Origin: Chakrabartia godavariana
GTDB lineage: Bacteria; Pseudomonadota; Alphaproteobacteria; Sphingomonadales; Sphingomonadaceae
Reading direction: 5' to 3'
DNA: 64,000 bases
Assembly (NCBI GenBank): GCA_005518185.1
Contig: RKSN01000003.1
Span: forward strand, 496,001 to 560,000
A program made the position numbers and the translations under genes. This document shows, one piece after another, positions 49,113-57,284 of the stretch. How positions within the stretch are numbered: position 1 is the first letter of the stretch; every line of letters begins with the position of its first letter. Below the pieces are notes generated by a model that did no database searches, had not been told where the DNA came from, and worked only from the letters and a program-made list of their open reading frames with translations.

Positions 49113-49574
49113 ATGATTTTACCCGTAACTTTGACGTTCGCAGGGGTCGCAGCCCTGATCAATCTCTGGCTCGCCATCCGCTGTGGCCAGGCCCGCACCA
49201 GTGAAAAGGTTTCGATCGGCGATGGCGGCAATGAAGCCGTCATCCGGCGCATGCGCGCGCACGCCAACTATATCGAGAACACGCCGTTCGTCCTTGCCAT
49301 GATCGCCGCGATCGAACTGGCCAAGACGCCGGGCGCCGCGCCGAGCTGGCTGTGGATCGTGGCCGCGCTCTATTTCCTGGGCCGGGTGGCGCATGGCCTC
49401 GGCATGGATGGCGGTGCACTTGCAAAGGGCCGGACGGTCGGCACGCTCATCACGATGCTGACACTCCTGGGTCTCGCGGCTTATTGCATCTCGATCCCCT
49501 ACACCTCGGCAGGCCAGATCCAGCCGGCCAGCTCGGTCGATCTGTCGGTCGCGGAAACCGTTCCCGCCAGCTAG
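49113..49574 (+). CDS. MAPEG family membrane protein
   Basis: 153 residues with four membrane helices; [18 protein letters not shown] is the diagnostic MAPEG segment, with an Arg/Glu/Asn set that binds glutathione in eukaryotic relatives. A strong AGGAGGGGAAG precedes the ATG. Bacterial MAPEG proteins may have glutathione transferase or peroxidase activity; here that is inferred from family only. Overlaps the convergent flavodoxin-like gene by four bases. Confidence 0.9.
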
Positions 49575-50062
49575 AACATTCCGATGGCAAGTCCCGCTGC
49601 CATGGCCTGACCGAGGTCGTGGCAGCGGGCAAGCTCTGGCGCTGCAATCGTCTTGGGCGCGAGAATTGCCTCCGGCGTCTGCGCATGGGTGCAGATGATG
49701 AGCGGCGCGGCCACAGCCTTCATCCGCCAGCCCGTCGCAATCCGCGCCATCTGTCGCGCCGCGCCCTCGCCGTCTGAGCCCGCGCAGATCATCGTCGCAT
49801 AGGGCCGCCCCTCGATCCGGCCGAGCGCGGGGTAATAGGCCCGGTCAAAGAAATCCTTCATCACGCCCGCCATGGTGGCGAGATTTTCCGGAGACGCGAA
49901 GATCGCGCCGTCGGCCGCAATAAGGTCGTCCGGACGCGCTTCTGCGGCCGTCAGGAGGCGCGTGACGACGCCCGCTTCCGCCTGCGCCCCCTCAAGCGCC
50001 GCGCGCGCCATCGCTTCGGTGCCGCCGGTGCGGCTGTGATAGAGGATCAGGAGGGATTTCAT
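49571..50062 (-). CDS. Flavodoxin/NAD(P)H-dependent oxidoreductase family protein
   Basis: 163 residues. The phosphate-binding loop of flavodoxins is LLILYHSRTGGTEAMARAAL, followed by DGAIFASPENLATMAGVMKDFFDRAYY, where the SPEN loop contacts FMN. CAGSDGEGAARQM also fits flavin reductase-like NAD(P)H oxidoreductases. Partner and reaction unknown. Confidence 0.88.
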   Translation of the reverse strand: MKSLLILYHSRTGGTEAMARAALEGAQAEAGVVTRLLTAAEARPDDLIAADGAIFASPENLATMAGVMKDFFDRAYYPALGRIEGRPYATMICAGSDGEGAARQMARIATGWRMKAVAAPLIICTHAQTPEAILAPKTIAAPELARCHDLGQAMAAGLAIGMF

Positions 50063-50145: not shown

Positions 50146-50253
50146 CGTCATCCTGAACTTGTTTCAGGATCCATGAACACTGCGACGGCGAAGGTTAGGC
50201 ACTTCCTTTGGCCGCCTTGATGCCAATGGATGCTGAAACAAGTTCAGCATGAC
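50146..50253. repeat. Family 3 palindrome, second copy
   Basis: 108-bp element. Left arm CATCCTGAACTTGTTTCAGG, right arm CTGAAACAAGTTCAGCATGAC, with a spacer of about 50 bases that includes CCATGAACAC, seen in inverted form in the 13752 copy. Confidence 0.9.
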
Positions 50254-50298: not shown

Positions 50299-50393
50299 CC
50301 GCTCGCCCTGAGCTTGTCGAAGGGCTGTTCTTGTTGTGCTTCGAACCTGGACGCCCAGTAAGGACCACCCTTCGACAAGCTCAGGGCGAGCGG
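50299..50393. repeat. Family 2 palindrome upstream of terS, perfect 26-bp arms
   Basis: 95-bp element whose outer 26 bases on each side are perfect inverted complements (CCGCTCGCCCTGAGC start, GCTCAGGGCGAGCGG end). The 43-base loop is shared, in reverse orientation, with the copy at 52322-52415: about 85 of 95 positions agree when one is inverted. Confidence 0.93.
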
Positions 50394-50410
50394 TTGGGGT
50401 GGGCGCAAAT

Positions 50411-50437
50411 TACCAAATAGGTAAAAATACCTTGACA
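50411..50437 (+). promoter_or_regulatory. Candidate GTA promoter with overlapping operator
   Basis: TACC-AAATA-GGTA (50411-50423) overlaps a perfect AGGTA-AAAA-TACCT palindrome (50419-50432), which runs straight into TTGACA (50432-50437), a good -35 box. No clear -10 box follows at the usual distance (CACATC at 50455). The A/T-rich composition contrasts with the flanks, and the first GTA gene starts about 100 bases downstream. Confidence 0.5.
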
Positions 50438-50534
50438 TTTTAACCAGTCTCTGGCACATCACCGGGACTGACGCGGACGATTCGGCGCTGATCCAGCGAA
50501 CCACCCGCCCTCCCCCTTATTCCGGAGACGATCC

Positions 50535-50999
50535 ATGGCTTTTGCCGCACCGCGCGTGGACGCGGAAGGCGCTGCGTCGGGGTTCGATGCGCGTGCCCGC
50601 AAGCTGTTTCTTGAACATCTGGCGCTCACGTCCAACGTGGCCGCGTCGGCGCGCAAGGCGGGTGTGCCCTCCTCGCGAGTCTATGCGCTGAAGCGCCGCA
50701 ATGCGGACTTTGCCCGCGACTGGCAGGCCGCCCTGTGCGAGGGCTTTGCCCGGCTGGAGGCCGAGCTGCTGGCCGAGGCGCTGCGCACCATTTCGGGCAA
50801 GGTGTCCGACGCGACACTCAAGTCGCGGGCGCAGAAGCACCGCCTGGCGCTGGCCCTGCTCGCGATGCACCGGGCCTCGGTGCGCGGACCGGCCAAGTCG
50901 CCAGCCCGCGCCGACCAGAGCGCGGCCCTCGCCGCGCGTGTCGAGGAAAAATTGCGCGACATGCGGGCGCGGCTGAAGGCCCATGACGCGCAAGGCTGA
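50535..50999 (+). CDS. GTA gp1, probable small terminase subunit
   Basis: 154 residues. The N-terminal region ARKLFLEHLALTSNVAASARKAGVPSSRVYALKRR is an HTH typical of small terminases, followed by long helices suitable for ring assembly and a basic tail. In R. capsulatus the first GTA gene has been shown to act as TerS. It overlaps terL by 17 bases. Start at 50535 with GGAG upstream. Preceded by a palindromic element and a candidate operator. Confidence 0.8.
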   Translation: MAFAAPRVDAEGAASGFDARARKLFLEHLALTSNVAASARKAGVPSSRVYALKRRNADFARDWQAALCEGFARLEAELLAEALRTISGKVSDATLKSRAQKHRLALALLAMHRASVRGPAKSPARADQSAALAARVEEKLRDMRARLKAHDAQG

Positions 51000-52302
51000 T
51001 CCCATCGACCATGCGCTCAAGGTCGCGGACCTGAGTGACGCCGCCTTTGCCAGATGGCTGAAAGCCAATGGCAAAAGGCTGGCCACGCTCGCCTTTGACT
51101 GGGCGTTCTGGCGGCGTCCCGATCAGGCCGAACCGGCGGGCGACTGGCGCTGCTGGCTGCTGCTCGCCGGTCGCGGGTTCGGCAAGACGCGGACCGGCGC
51201 CGAATGGGTCCGCGCCCGGGCCGAGGCCGATGGCCGGCTGCGCATCGCGCTGGTCGCAGCGACAATGGCCGACGTACGCGCCATCATGGTGGAGGGCGAA
51301 AGCGGTCTCCTGTCGATCGCGCCCGATGCGACCCGGCCCATTTTTGAACCCTCGCTCCAGCGGCTCGTCTGGCCCAATGGCGCGATCGCCAAGCTTTATT
51401 CCGCCGCCGAACCCGAAGGGCTGCGCGGCCCCGAACATCATATCGCCTGGGCCGATGAATGTGCCAAATGGGATAACGCGTCGACCGTCTGGGACAATCT
51501 GGCGATGTCGCTGCGTCTCGGATCGCAGCCACAGGTGGTTGCCACCACCACGCCCCGGCCGGTCCCGCTGATCCGGCGGCTGCTGTCCGAAGCCGGGGTT
51601 GCAACGACGCGCGGTCGGACGGCCGACAATGCCCTCAACCTCGCCGCGCCCTTCGTGGTGGCGATGCGGACGGTCTATGCCGGAACGCGACTGGGGCGAC
51701 AGGAACTTGACGGGGAACTGATCGACGATGTCGACGGCGCGCTGTGGACGCGGGCGATGATCGAGGCCGCGCGAACGGCGGCGCTGCCGGGTCTTGTGCG
51801 CGTCGTGATCGGGGTTGATCCCCCGGCGGGAACCAAGGGCGATGCCTGCGGGATCGTTGCCGTCGGCCTTGGCGCGGATGGCACCGCCTATGTCCTTGAC
51901 GATGCGAGTCTTTCTGGCGCGTCACCCGAAGGCTGGGCGCGCCAGGTCGCCGAAAGTGCGGCCGCCCATGGCGCCGACCGCGTGATCGCCGAGGCCAATA
52001 ATGGCGGCGACATGGTGGCCAGCGTCCTGCGCGGGGCGGCCCCCGGCCTGCCCGTCCGGCTCGTGCACGCCGCACGCGGCAAGACCGCCCGGGCCGAGCC
52101 GGTCGCGGCGCTCTGTGAACGCGGCAAGGTCCGTCACGCGGACCGCTTTCCCGCGCTCGAAGATGAATTGTGCGGCCTGTGCACGGGCGGGGCCTATCAC
52201 GGGCCGGGGCGATCCCCAGACCGGGCGGATGCACTCGTCTGGGCCGTGACGGAGATGATGTTGAAACAGAGTGGGCCACAACCTCGGATACGGGTGCTGT
52301 AA
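50983..52302 (+). CDS. GTA gp2, large terminase subunit
   Basis: 439 residues. ATPase: Walker A GRGFGKT (63-69) and Walker B in HHIAWADECAKW. RNase H-like nuclease: VIGVDPPAGTKGDACGIV, IAEANNGGDM and SPDRADALVWAV give the acidic metal triad. It pumps DNA into the capsid and cuts by the headful mechanism. Start at 50983, inside the end of gp1. Confidence 0.95.
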   Translation: MTRKADPIDHALKVADLSDAAFARWLKANGKRLATLAFDWAFWRRPDQAEPAGDWRCWLLLAGRGFGKTRTGAEWVRARAEADGRLRIALVAATMADVRAIMVEGESGLLSIAPDATRPIFEPSLQRLVWPNGAIAKLYSAAEPEGLRGPEHHIAWADECAKWDNASTVWDNLAMSLRLGSQPQVVATTTPRPVPLIRRLLSEAGVATTRGRTADNALNLAAPFVVAMRTVYAGTRLGRQELDGELIDDVDGALWTRAMIEAARTAALPGLVRVVIGVDPPAGTKGDACGIVAVGLGADGTAYVLDDASLSGASPEGWARQVAESAAAHGADRVIAEANNGGDMVASVLRGAAPGLPVRLVHAARGKTARAEPVAALCERGKVRHADRFPALEDELCGLCTGGAYHGPGRSPDRADALVWAVTEMMLKQSGPQPRIRVL

Positions 52303-52321
52303 GTATTTGGAGCCCCCAACG

Positions 52322-52415
52322 CCGCTCATCCTGAGCCTGTCGAAGGGTGGCCTTACTGGGCGCCCAAGTTCGAAGAACAACAAAAACAGCCCTTCGACAA
52401 GCTCAGGGCAAACGG
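52322..52415. repeat. Family 2 palindrome between terminase and portal genes, inverted copy
   Basis: 94-bp element inside the GTA operon, the reverse complement of the 50299 copy with about ten differences and one missing base. It is the only long non-coding gap (about 200 bases) between the head genes, and its hairpin may act on the GTA transcript. Confidence 0.92.
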
Positions 52416-52500: not shown

Positions 52501-53610
52501 ATGAAACTCTTTGGCTGGAAATCGGCCGCCAAGGCCCCGGTGCGCCCGGCGTTGACGAAGGGAATACCCTGGATCAGCGGGGATTGGCCGCGCGCCTATG
52601 AGGTGCAGCTGCGTGAGCTCTATCTGGGCTGCGCCATCGCCCAGCGCGCGGTGCGGCTGGTGGCCGAAGGCGTGGCGTCGATCCCCTTTGTCGCGCGCGA
52701 TGCGGCGGCCGGACAGATGGTGTCGGCCACCTCGGGCGGACAGGCGCTGCTGGAGACGCTGGCGACGCAGTTGCTGCTTCACGGCAATGGCTATGTCCAG
52801 CTGCTCCCCGATCCCGAAGGGCGTCCGGTCGAGCTGTTTGCCCTTCGCCCGGAACGCGTGTCGGTGGAGGCCGATGCGCGCGGCTGGCCGGTCGCCTATC
52901 GCTACAAGGCGGGGGAGGTCGCGACGCTGCTTCCGGCGGATCATGTCATCCATATCCGCACGCACCATCCGCTTGACGACCATTATGGGCTGGGCAGCCT
53001 TGATGCCGCCGCCGGGCCAATGGCCGTCCACCGTGCCGCAACGGTCTGGAACAAGGCGCTGCTCGACAATGCGGCGCGGCCCTCCGGCGCGCTGGTGCAC
53101 GACGCGGCAGAGGCGCTGTCCGCCGACCAGTTTGACCGGCTGCGGGCCGAACTCGACAGCGGTTTTACCGGCGCGCGCAATGCCGGGCGGCCGATGCTGC
53201 TCGAAGGCGGGCTCAAATGGCAGGCGCTCTCGCTGACGCCCGCCGACATGGATTTTGCAACGCTCAAGGCGGCGGCGGCGCGCGACATCGCGCTCGCCTT
53301 CGGGGTGCCGCCCGTGCTGCTCGGCCTGCCCGGCGATGCGACCTATGCCAATTACCGAGAGGCCAATCGTGCGCTGTGGCGCCAGTCGATCCTTCCGCTG
53401 GCCACGAAGATTCTCGACGCCATCGCCGAAGGGCTGTCGGGACATTTTGCCGGGCTGACGCTGCGCGTCGATGCCGATCGCGTCCCGGCGCTCAGTGAGG
53501 ACCGCGAACGCCTCTGGGCACAGGTCACCGCCGCCGACTTCCTGACCGCCGATGAAAAGCGCGCGCTCGTGGGGCTTGCCCCTCTCTCCGACACCGGAGC
53601 CGACCAATGA
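52501..53610 (+). CDS. GTA gp3, portal protein (HK97 family)
   Basis: 369 residues from the ATG at 52501 with GGAG six bases upstream; a TTG at 52489 is less likely. Portal family landmarks: YLGCAIAQRAVRLVAEGVAS, LLLHGNGYVQLLPD, DHYGLGSLDAAAGPM and DIALAFGVPPVLLGLPGDATYANYREA. It forms the dodecameric DNA gate at the capsid vertex. Overlaps the next gene by four bases. Confidence 0.95.
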   Translation: MKLFGWKSAAKAPVRPALTKGIPWISGDWPRAYEVQLRELYLGCAIAQRAVRLVAEGVASIPFVARDAAAGQMVSATSGGQALLETLATQLLLHGNGYVQLLPDPEGRPVELFALRPERVSVEADARGWPVAYRYKAGEVATLLPADHVIHIRTHHPLDDHYGLGSLDAAAGPMAVHRAATVWNKALLDNAARPSGALVHDAAEALSADQFDRLRAELDSGFTGARNAGRPMLLEGGLKWQALSLTPADMDFATLKAAAARDIALAFGVPPVLLGLPGDATYANYREANRALWRQSILPLATKILDAIAEGLSGHFAGLTLRVDADRVPALSEDRERLWAQVTAADFLTADEKRALVGLAPLSDTGADQ

Positions 53611-55449: not shown

Positions 55450-55716
55450 ATGCCCGATCCCTTTGCCGCGTCCGCCGACAGCGTCACCTCGCCCGCCGAG
55501 GATGCCGCAGCACTTGTCCCGCATGACACCAATCCTGTCGTCACCACCCCCAAGGCGCTGTTCGTCGGGACGGGTGGCCACATCGTGCTGCGCGGCATCA
55601 ATGGCAGCGCGGACGTCACCTTCCGCAACGTGCCGAGCGGGTCCGTGCTGCCCGTCCGTCCTGGCTTTGTCCGGGCGACAGGGACGACCGCCGCCGACAT
55701 CCTGGCGCTCTACTGA
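55450..55716 (+). CDS. GTA head-spike base protein (RcGTA GhsA/Rcc01079-like)
   Basis: 88 residues. The pattern is an N-terminal DPFAASADSVTSPA, then ALFVGTGGHIVLRGINGSAD, VTFRNVPSGSVLPVRPGFV and ATGTTAADILALY, matching the spike base family named after R. capsulatus Rcc01079. In that species the spike base and fibre attach to capsid vertices and are encoded away from the main cluster. Here the gene follows the capsid gene directly and overlaps the fibre gene (TGATG). Confidence 0.85.
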   Translation: MPDPFAASADSVTSPAEDAAALVPHDTNPVVTTPKALFVGTGGHIVLRGINGSADVTFRNVPSGSVLPVRPGFVRATGTTAADILALY

Positions 55717-57284
55717 TGACGAGCTTCGGCTTTGAGGCCGGGCTGGCGCTGGCGCAGCGCCGCAGCGGCGGCCCCGCCGGGCCGGTCGCGCCGGTGCCCG
55801 CCAATTACAGCTTCCTCCTCTATGGCGACAGCCGCACCGATGACGGGAAGACGACGTCCAACGGGACGAGCGGCCTTATTCAGGGCACGGCGTCGCTCGG
55901 CTATGCGCCCTGGCTGGAGCTGCTGTCGGGCTATCGGCTGCGGATCGCGCGCAATGCGAACTTCGCGGTGCCGGCCTCAACCACCTATCAGGGCGCGGCG
56001 CTCCCCCGCCAGAACGCGAACGGGGTTGTGACGCCGGGCGATGCCTGGCGGTCCAACGGCGCGGTCAACTTCTCCGACAATAAGGGCGCGGACTTTGCCA
56101 ATGCGCATGAGGCGGGGATTGGCGTGCTGCTCTATGGCACCAATGACCAGATCGTCTCCGATGCCGGCTATCTGGCCGCATCGCGGACCAACATCGTTGC
56201 CATCCTGAACGCGGCGCCCGCCAAGGTCTGGGTCGTCTGCAATGAGCTGCCCAAGGGCGTGAACGACAATGGCACGCTGGGCGGACAGACGGTCAGCGCC
56301 AATTTCAAGGCCTTCTCGGACTGGCTGCTGACGCTCGACCATGCCTCGGGCCATGCCAATGCCCGGGCCAACGTGATCGTCGTCGACACCTGGGGCGAAT
56401 TTGTCGATGCGGCGACCGGTACGCTCTACCGCAACAAGCGCGGCTATCTGCGCGACGGGCTGCACTGCACGGGCTATGGGTCCAAGCGGATCGCGGCGAA
56501 GATCATCGAGCGGCTGTCCGCCATCTGGCCGGGCTGGGGCGCGCTTCCGCCGCAGATCACGCTGCCGACTGCCAATGGTCTGGCAAGCCTTGGGGCGGCC
56601 CAACCCTGCATCATGTCCAACCCGATCTTCACGCCCGGAACGGCGGGGAGCGTGCTCGGCACTTGGGGCACGGCCCCGGTCGCGGCCAATATTCCGCAAG
56701 GCTGGACCGTGTTCATGTCGGGCACCGGCGCGGGGATCAGCTGCACGGCCGAAAAGGGTGTCGAGACCGATCCCGATGGCTATCCGGTGTTCAAGCTGAC
56801 GATCTCGGGCACGCTGGCGGCGAACAGCAGCTGCACGATCCAAGTCTATCAGCTTGCCCCGCTCGCCGCCCTGTTCGCCAGCAACTGGCTGACGATCAAC
56901 GACAAGCTGCGCGGCGTGGCGCGGATGAAGGTGGAGCCGGGCGCCCAATATTTCAGCGGCGCCTCGCTCTCGCTGATCGTGCAGAGCCCGACGACGGCCA
57001 AATATCTGACCGGCTTCACCGGGCGCGGCGGCTCGGTCATCAACATGTCGGCGCCGGCCTTTCTTGAAGCCTATGACGGCGCCTGGCTGCCTTATTGCAC
57101 CGAGGTTCTCGACTTTCAGGATCCGGGCAAGGTCGCGCTCGGGCAGAACATGGCGGCGCAGGCCGACATCAGCCAGATCCAGATCCGCGCCGACCTCGAT
57201 TTCCGCAACCTGACCGCAGCGACGCAGACTGTCGCCGCCACCGTGCGCCTGTCGCGCACCGGCGCGATGCGCGTCGCGGCCTGA
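55716..57284 (+). CDS. GTA head-spike fibre with SGNH/GDSL hydrolase domain
   Basis: 522 residues. An N-terminal anchor (about 1-30) is followed by an SGNH hydrolase domain (about 31-275): block I LLYGDSRTDD with Ser39, block III LLYGTND (141-144), and block V DGLHCTGYGSK with Asp247 and His250. The C-terminal 240 residues are beta-rich, Gly/Ser/Thr-rich and may form a carbohydrate-binding jelly roll. Position after the spike base identifies it as the GhsB counterpart. It could deacetylate or bind capsular polysaccharide of recipient cells; that is inference. Confidence 0.8.
   Translation: MTSFGFEAGLALAQRRSGGPAGPVAPVPANYSFLLYGDSRTDDGKTTSNGTSGLIQGTASLGYAPWLELLSGYRLRIARNANFAVPASTTYQGAALPRQNANGVVTPGDAWRSNGAVNFSDNKGADFANAHEAGIGVLLYGTNDQIVSDAGYLAASRTNIVAILNAAPAKVWVVCNELPKGVNDNGTLGGQTVSANFKAFSDWLLTLDHASGHANARANVIVVDTWGEFVDAATGTLYRNKRGYLRDGLHCTGYGSKRIAAKIIERLSAIWPGWGALPPQITLPTANGLASLGAAQPCIMSNPIFTPGTAGSVLGTWGTAPVAANIPQGWTVFMSGTGAGISCTAEKGVETDPDGYPVFKLTISGTLAANSSCTIQVYQLAPLAALFASNWLTINDKLRGVARMKVEPGAQYFSGASLSLIVQSPTTAKYLTGFTGRGGSVINMSAPAFLEAYDGAWLPYCTEVLDFQDPGKVALGQNMAAQADISQIQIRADLDFRNLTAATQTVAATVRLSRTGAMRVAA

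Follow-up and report, generated by a model that had tools for sequence, protein, structure and literature searches.

The two palindromic elements that bracket the terminase genes terS and terL of Chakrabartia godavariana are very probably both copies of a genome-wide, non-autonomous REP dimer, the downstream copy being ancestral and the upstream copy a later one. They lie in a 64,000-nucleotide stretch of contig RKSN01000003.1, called here the window. Element 1 (50299-50393) is the upstream dimer and element 2 (52322-52415) lies between terL and the portal gene; neither is assigned to a strand, and each is inverted relative to the other.

Structure and surroundings of the two elements

The small terminase subunit gene terS (50535-50999, matching profile phrog_4044), the large subunit gene terL (50983-52302, PF03237 and PF17289) and the portal protein gene (52501-53610, PF04860) are all on the plus strand. 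Profile searches also placed prohead protease and capsid genes downstream of the portal gene. From the gene order and from what is known of these families, we infer that the cluster encodes an RcGTA-like gene transfer agent (GTA). On the other side, a gene for an FMN_red family protein (49571-50062, minus strand) is divergent from terS. The gap from element 1 to the terS start at 50535 is 141 bp, and 19 bp separate the terL stop at 52302 from element 2. An Rfam search of the window gave no match. The 522-aa gene that follows the capsid gene (55716-57284) matched the phage 'lipase' family phrog_6102 and no Pfam family at 0.001.

A repeat search of the window paired 50299-50363 with 52351-52415 as 65-nt arms that are 91% complementary, and detected within each element a palindrome of its own. 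In global alignment, element 1 and the inverse of element 2 were identical in 85 of 97 columns, loop included. This confirms the initial annotation, which had described inverted copies of one palindrome with matching loops. When folded on both strands, the two elements were far more stable than their shuffles (z from -4.9 to -11.3). The likeness was not seen to extend into a larger duplicated block, as alignments of the flanks were equalled by 84 and 184 of 500 shuffles.

The elements had also been said to flank terS-terL exactly. The bracketing stands, but a promoter-like block is also enclosed, 3' of element 1 and before terS (50410-50439, plus strand). This block, TTACC-N5-GGTAA followed by TTGACA, was kept as TTACCAAATAGGTAA...TTGACA in all six aligned loci. 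A scan with the sigma-70 consensus returned no site there. The block is likely a promoter region, and in these sphingomonads it could serve the GTA as promoter and operator.

A family of REP dimers throughout the genome

The arm core CTGAGCTTGTCGAAGGG occurs 25 times exactly and 111 times with up to two mismatches in the 3.17 Mb genome, while the reversed pattern, used as a control, has no copy. The arm consensus is nnnCTGAGCYTGTCGAAGnnn, and an element consists of two such hairpins inverted around a spacer. Within the stretches examined we counted 157 arms, 138 of them within dimers, and at least 69 inverted dimers, a lower bound since these stretches surround only part of the 111 arm places. 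Five dimers are in the window, at about 7600, 8220, 26357, 50308 and 52331. In 95, 94 and 84% of the 157 arms, the three flanking stem positions can pair with their partners in the same arm, versus 46, 37 and 49% in shuffles; the best of 1000 shuffles reached 61, 48 and 62%. The triplets that pair are diverse (GCC/GGC, GGG/CCC, GTG/CAC, ACC/GGT, AGG/CCT). Since they covary inside the arm, each small hairpin is a unit of its own, and two such units make up the 95-bp element, a dimer. The family thus shows two general features of REP sequences, a stem kept by paired changes and a high copy number mostly outside open reading frames (ORFs; a noisy count).

Dimer placement was scored from ORFs, a noisy procedure in which, for example, an antisense ORF was mistaken for the portal gene. 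It gave 23 dimers between convergent genes, 19 between genes of the same direction, 4 between divergent genes, 19 inside an ORF and 4 at an edge. On the same noisy basis, many copies lie about 15-40 nt past a stop codon. Nine dimer pairs are no more than 2.1 kb apart, versus 3.2 expected under uniform placement, so nearness to a sister copy is common. Of 149 genomes of the family, 84 had the repeat pattern, as did 8 of the 13 genus genomes. Literature searches returned no paper on the arm sequence by its spellings, and none on this repeat under REP and Sphingomonas. The repeat is an ordinary REP family, a described kind of element, at an interesting place.

The nearest described group is the CGTC REP super-family of alphaproteobacteria, for which the available text of Di Nocera et al. 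(2013, PMC3733652) gives stems of 8-9 bp, loops of 4-5 nt and no dedicated transposase. As in that description, the present family forms small hairpins arranged as inverted dimers, often heterodimers, is common in alphaproteobacteria, lies between genes near their 3' ends and has no dedicated transposase; dimers predominate. One possible reading of the arm is a stem of 8 positions around the loop CYTGT. Unlike CGTC REPs, two facing stem positions are G/A, which are non-standard pairs, the tag before the stem is CGYTY and the tail is not CCA, as seen in the position profile after the stem. Only 10 of 142 good arms have CGTC directly before the core, the commonest tags being GCTC (58) and GTTT (47), so a CGTC, TGTC or CCTC tag does not characterize the family. 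Lacking both the tag and the tail, it is filed as a REP dimer in general, outside the super-family, a provisional separation made from the published description.

The same intergenic region as element 1 contains a second, different REP-type dimer (50147-50253, no strand assigned) with core CTGAACTTGTTTCAG, which has CGTC before and CCA after the stem and fits the CGTC pattern. Its core has 77 copies in the genome at no more than one mismatch (reversed control, 0). A dimer of this type is found at the corresponding place in one close relative (locus L033).

An inverted pair of REPs that is separated by a spacer and spreads as one unit is also known as a REPIN, and REPINs are associated with RAYT transposases. 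The present element has the same architecture. Unlike a REPIN, its arms have no GTAG tag, and the profile search detected no PF01797 transposase, hence no RAYT gene flanked by the repeat, in its own genome. PF01797 was present in 24 of the 149 family genomes; the arm pattern occurred in 16 of these 24 versus 68 of the 125 others, which indicates no clear link between PF01797 and the repeat. Mobilisation by a RAYT was rejected on these grounds. Among 28 stretches around PF01797 matches in the family, a related variant dimer was near one only. In that stretch (L154, genome G068), the variant CTGAGCCTGGCGAAG (2399-2474) follows a Y1-type transposase gene (1462-2148) by about 250 bp. It has 33 near matches in its genome, but the reversed control has 6, so the hint that this transposase gives about the family's mobilising enzyme is weak.

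The two arms of a dimer rarely match. The same stem dinucleotide was present in both arms of only 4 of the 69 dimers examined. Among long dimers the figure was 4 of 52, versus 14.6 expected on re-dealing the arms, with 3 of 5000 deals as low; the 33 dimers of a related genome (G008) showed the same tendency more weakly. Arms of one dimer thus avoid the same stem, and as a result almost every copy has its long hairpin interrupted at the stem positions. Such a pattern would be expected if the dimers had been copied whole from a common founder. Heterodimers in alphaproteobacteria are described in the available text of PMC3733652, with no explanation given there.

Orthologous loci and the origin of the two copies

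The history of the pair was read from orthologous loci. In the three closest relatives (L029, L030 and L033; terL 84-85% identical to that of C. godavariana), the gap between terL and portal contains an element orthologous to element 2, in the same orientation and with a homologous loop. The L029 and L030 elements are identical (107/107), so the three relatives yield two distinct sequences besides our own. In two more distant loci (L031 and L032, terL identity 73 and 70%), no element follows terL, and the portal gene lies 29 and 38 nt downstream. Upstream of terS, all five loci lack element 1, which was seen in C. godavariana only. The initial annotation had suggested aligning orthologous loci and had counted the absence of either element from close relatives against its reading. 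The outcome is divided: element 2 is conserved in place in 3/3 closest relatives, but element 1 is missing from all of them.

Within the genus, terL was found in 9 of 13 genomes (in G004 on two pieces), and the gap contains the repeat in four of these nine (C. godavariana, G008, G009 and G010). The other five have no repeat in the gap as far as their loci reach. One of these five (G012) does carry a dimer, but it lies over 1 kb upstream of terL and occupies neither slot.

Element 1 is closest to element 2 (identity 0.88), then to the gap elements of L033 (0.83) and of L029 and L030 (0.81), the other copies compared from its own genome being at most 0.79. Elements 1 and 2 are mutual best matches and share their loop. 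In a tree of elements they are sisters, with L029/L030 next and L033 placed elsewhere; with such short sequences the result hinges on how the loop is aligned, and pair identities were relied on instead of the tree. A recent common origin of the two elements is thus confirmed at the level of sequence. The earlier claim that they descend from a single unit and are not chance hairpins was borne out by the common loop and by the proximity of element 1 to the terL-portal lineage. On the sequence comparisons, element 1 is most simply explained as a later, inverted local copy of that lineage, confined to the C. godavariana line.

Element 2 would thus have entered the terL-portal gap in an ancestor of C. 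godavariana and its three closest relatives, just past a stop codon, a frequent site for this repeat family. Element 1 would later have landed in inverted orientation upstream of the terS promoter region, carrying the loop lineage that it shares with element 2. It would have been copied from element 2, or from the element 2 lineage, by whatever moves the family. Some observations speak against this account. Element 1 is between divergent genes, where the noisy scoring from ORFs puts only 4 of 69 dimers. Nothing was identified that would make the repeat mobile, PF01797 being absent from the genome. Moreover, the arms nearly match in the two terminase elements and in the terL-portal elements of the relatives, in contrast to the rest of the family; element 1 is the sole GCC x GCC homodimer among the 69 dimers examined, and second among them in fold stability. 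These matching arms could reflect selection for a strong hairpin.

Alternatively, the two elements could be independent insertions of the same family, alike because they belong to one subfamily or because of later gene conversion. The family is common and its copies are clustered, and the likeness of the pair ranks only second among 1275 long-dimer pairs (mean 0.73, sd 0.05): the members of the first-ranked pair, with identity 0.89, are on two different contigs. Element 1, however, resembles the terL-portal elements of the relatives more closely than any non-GTA copy compared from its own genome; gene conversion would explain this as well. We consider independent insertion possible but unlikely.

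Control at the terL-portal gap and inversion of the terminase genes

According to the preferred reading, an ancestral element 2 and a later element 1, element 2 would be transcribed within the operon and form a hairpin in the message between terL and portal. This hairpin may mildly attenuate the terL-portal message or aid its processing. Element 1, upstream of the promoter-like block, probably does little.

A stronger role for element 2 is suggested by Caulobacter crescentus. There, in the available text of PMC11150451, reporters demonstrated a terminator, terGTA, immediately after the large terminase gene (gtaT), and its passage is aided by GafZ. Like terGTA, element 2 places repeat-borne inverted repeats between the large terminase and portal genes; terGTA consists of three direct repeats of 150 bp whose terminator activity has been tested, whereas element 2 is one 94-bp REP dimer known from sequence. 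By analogy, element 2 might be a domesticated terminator or attenuator that partly stops transcription after terL, so that GTA output would need read-through. The slot is the same, and the long hairpin is kept nearly throughout in three distinct terL-portal sequences and in element 1; among these four sequences, pairs 12-94 and 30-76 are compensated and one sequence has a stem mismatch at pair 20-86. The copy of G008 ranks second of 33 dimers by fold energy in its genome, but element 2 itself ranks only 25th of 69. No U-run terminator was found at the element 2 slot, and a position after a stop codon is in any case common in this family. Most other Sphingomonadales loci examined have no outstanding hairpin after terL, and a terminator conserved across the order was rejected since no consistent hairpin was present there. 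Six loci (L039, L042, L048, L052, L053 and L073) have about 1.5-2.1 kb between terL and portal, room for extra genes such as Caulobacter gtaQS.

The read-through factor may itself be missing, as DUF6456, a GafA/GafZ-type domain, was not found in the C. godavariana genome. GafA homologues are annotated as DUF6456 in the available texts of PMC9638019 and PMC9765227. The domain was detected in 8 of the 13 genus genomes (G001-G006, G011 and G012; 126-142 bits), in proteins that are GafA/GafZ-type by domain. It was not found in G000 (C. godavariana, complete) or in G007-G010, though terL is open in these genomes. The four genomes with the terL-portal element are all without DUF6456, and four of the five terL-bearing genomes without the element have it. 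Since the association falls in one clade, it counts as one event, and it may reflect coincidence or divergence of the protein. A domesticated terminator or attenuator of this kind at element 2 appears quite improbable. A broader version, in which a REP dimer was co-opted as a GTA control point between terL and portal in the DUF6456-less clade, with matching arms under selection and element 1 delimiting the promoter, would be very improbable.

The initial annotation had interpreted the pair as an invertible DNA switch, recombination between the elements turning terS-terL relative to its promoter and the portal gene and so stopping packaging. The elements are indeed inverted and 88% identical, but their longest exact inverted match is 25 nt, a length equalled or exceeded in 217 of 2346 dimer pairs and thus unexceptional. 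In a survey of 30 loci, 23 had a portal match and 23 a terS match; terL was co-oriented with portal in 23/23 and with terS in 23/23, and no inverted form was present among the 23 loci with both terL and portal. The promoter-like block is inside the invertible segment, so the block would be inverted along with terS and terL, and portal and everything downstream would lose it, contrary to the claimed separation of the terminase pair from its promoter. With element 1 also missing from the three closest relatives, we reject the switch, to which almost no credence can be given.

Altogether, an apparent packaging switch becomes a case of repeat insertion, in which the order of events can be read: one copy is common to four species and the other is private to C. 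godavariana. The analysis also points to a clade that carries a GTA but in which no DUF6456 regulator was detected, and raises the question of whether GTA operons are throttled by REP hairpins in the terL-portal gap, as by terGTA.
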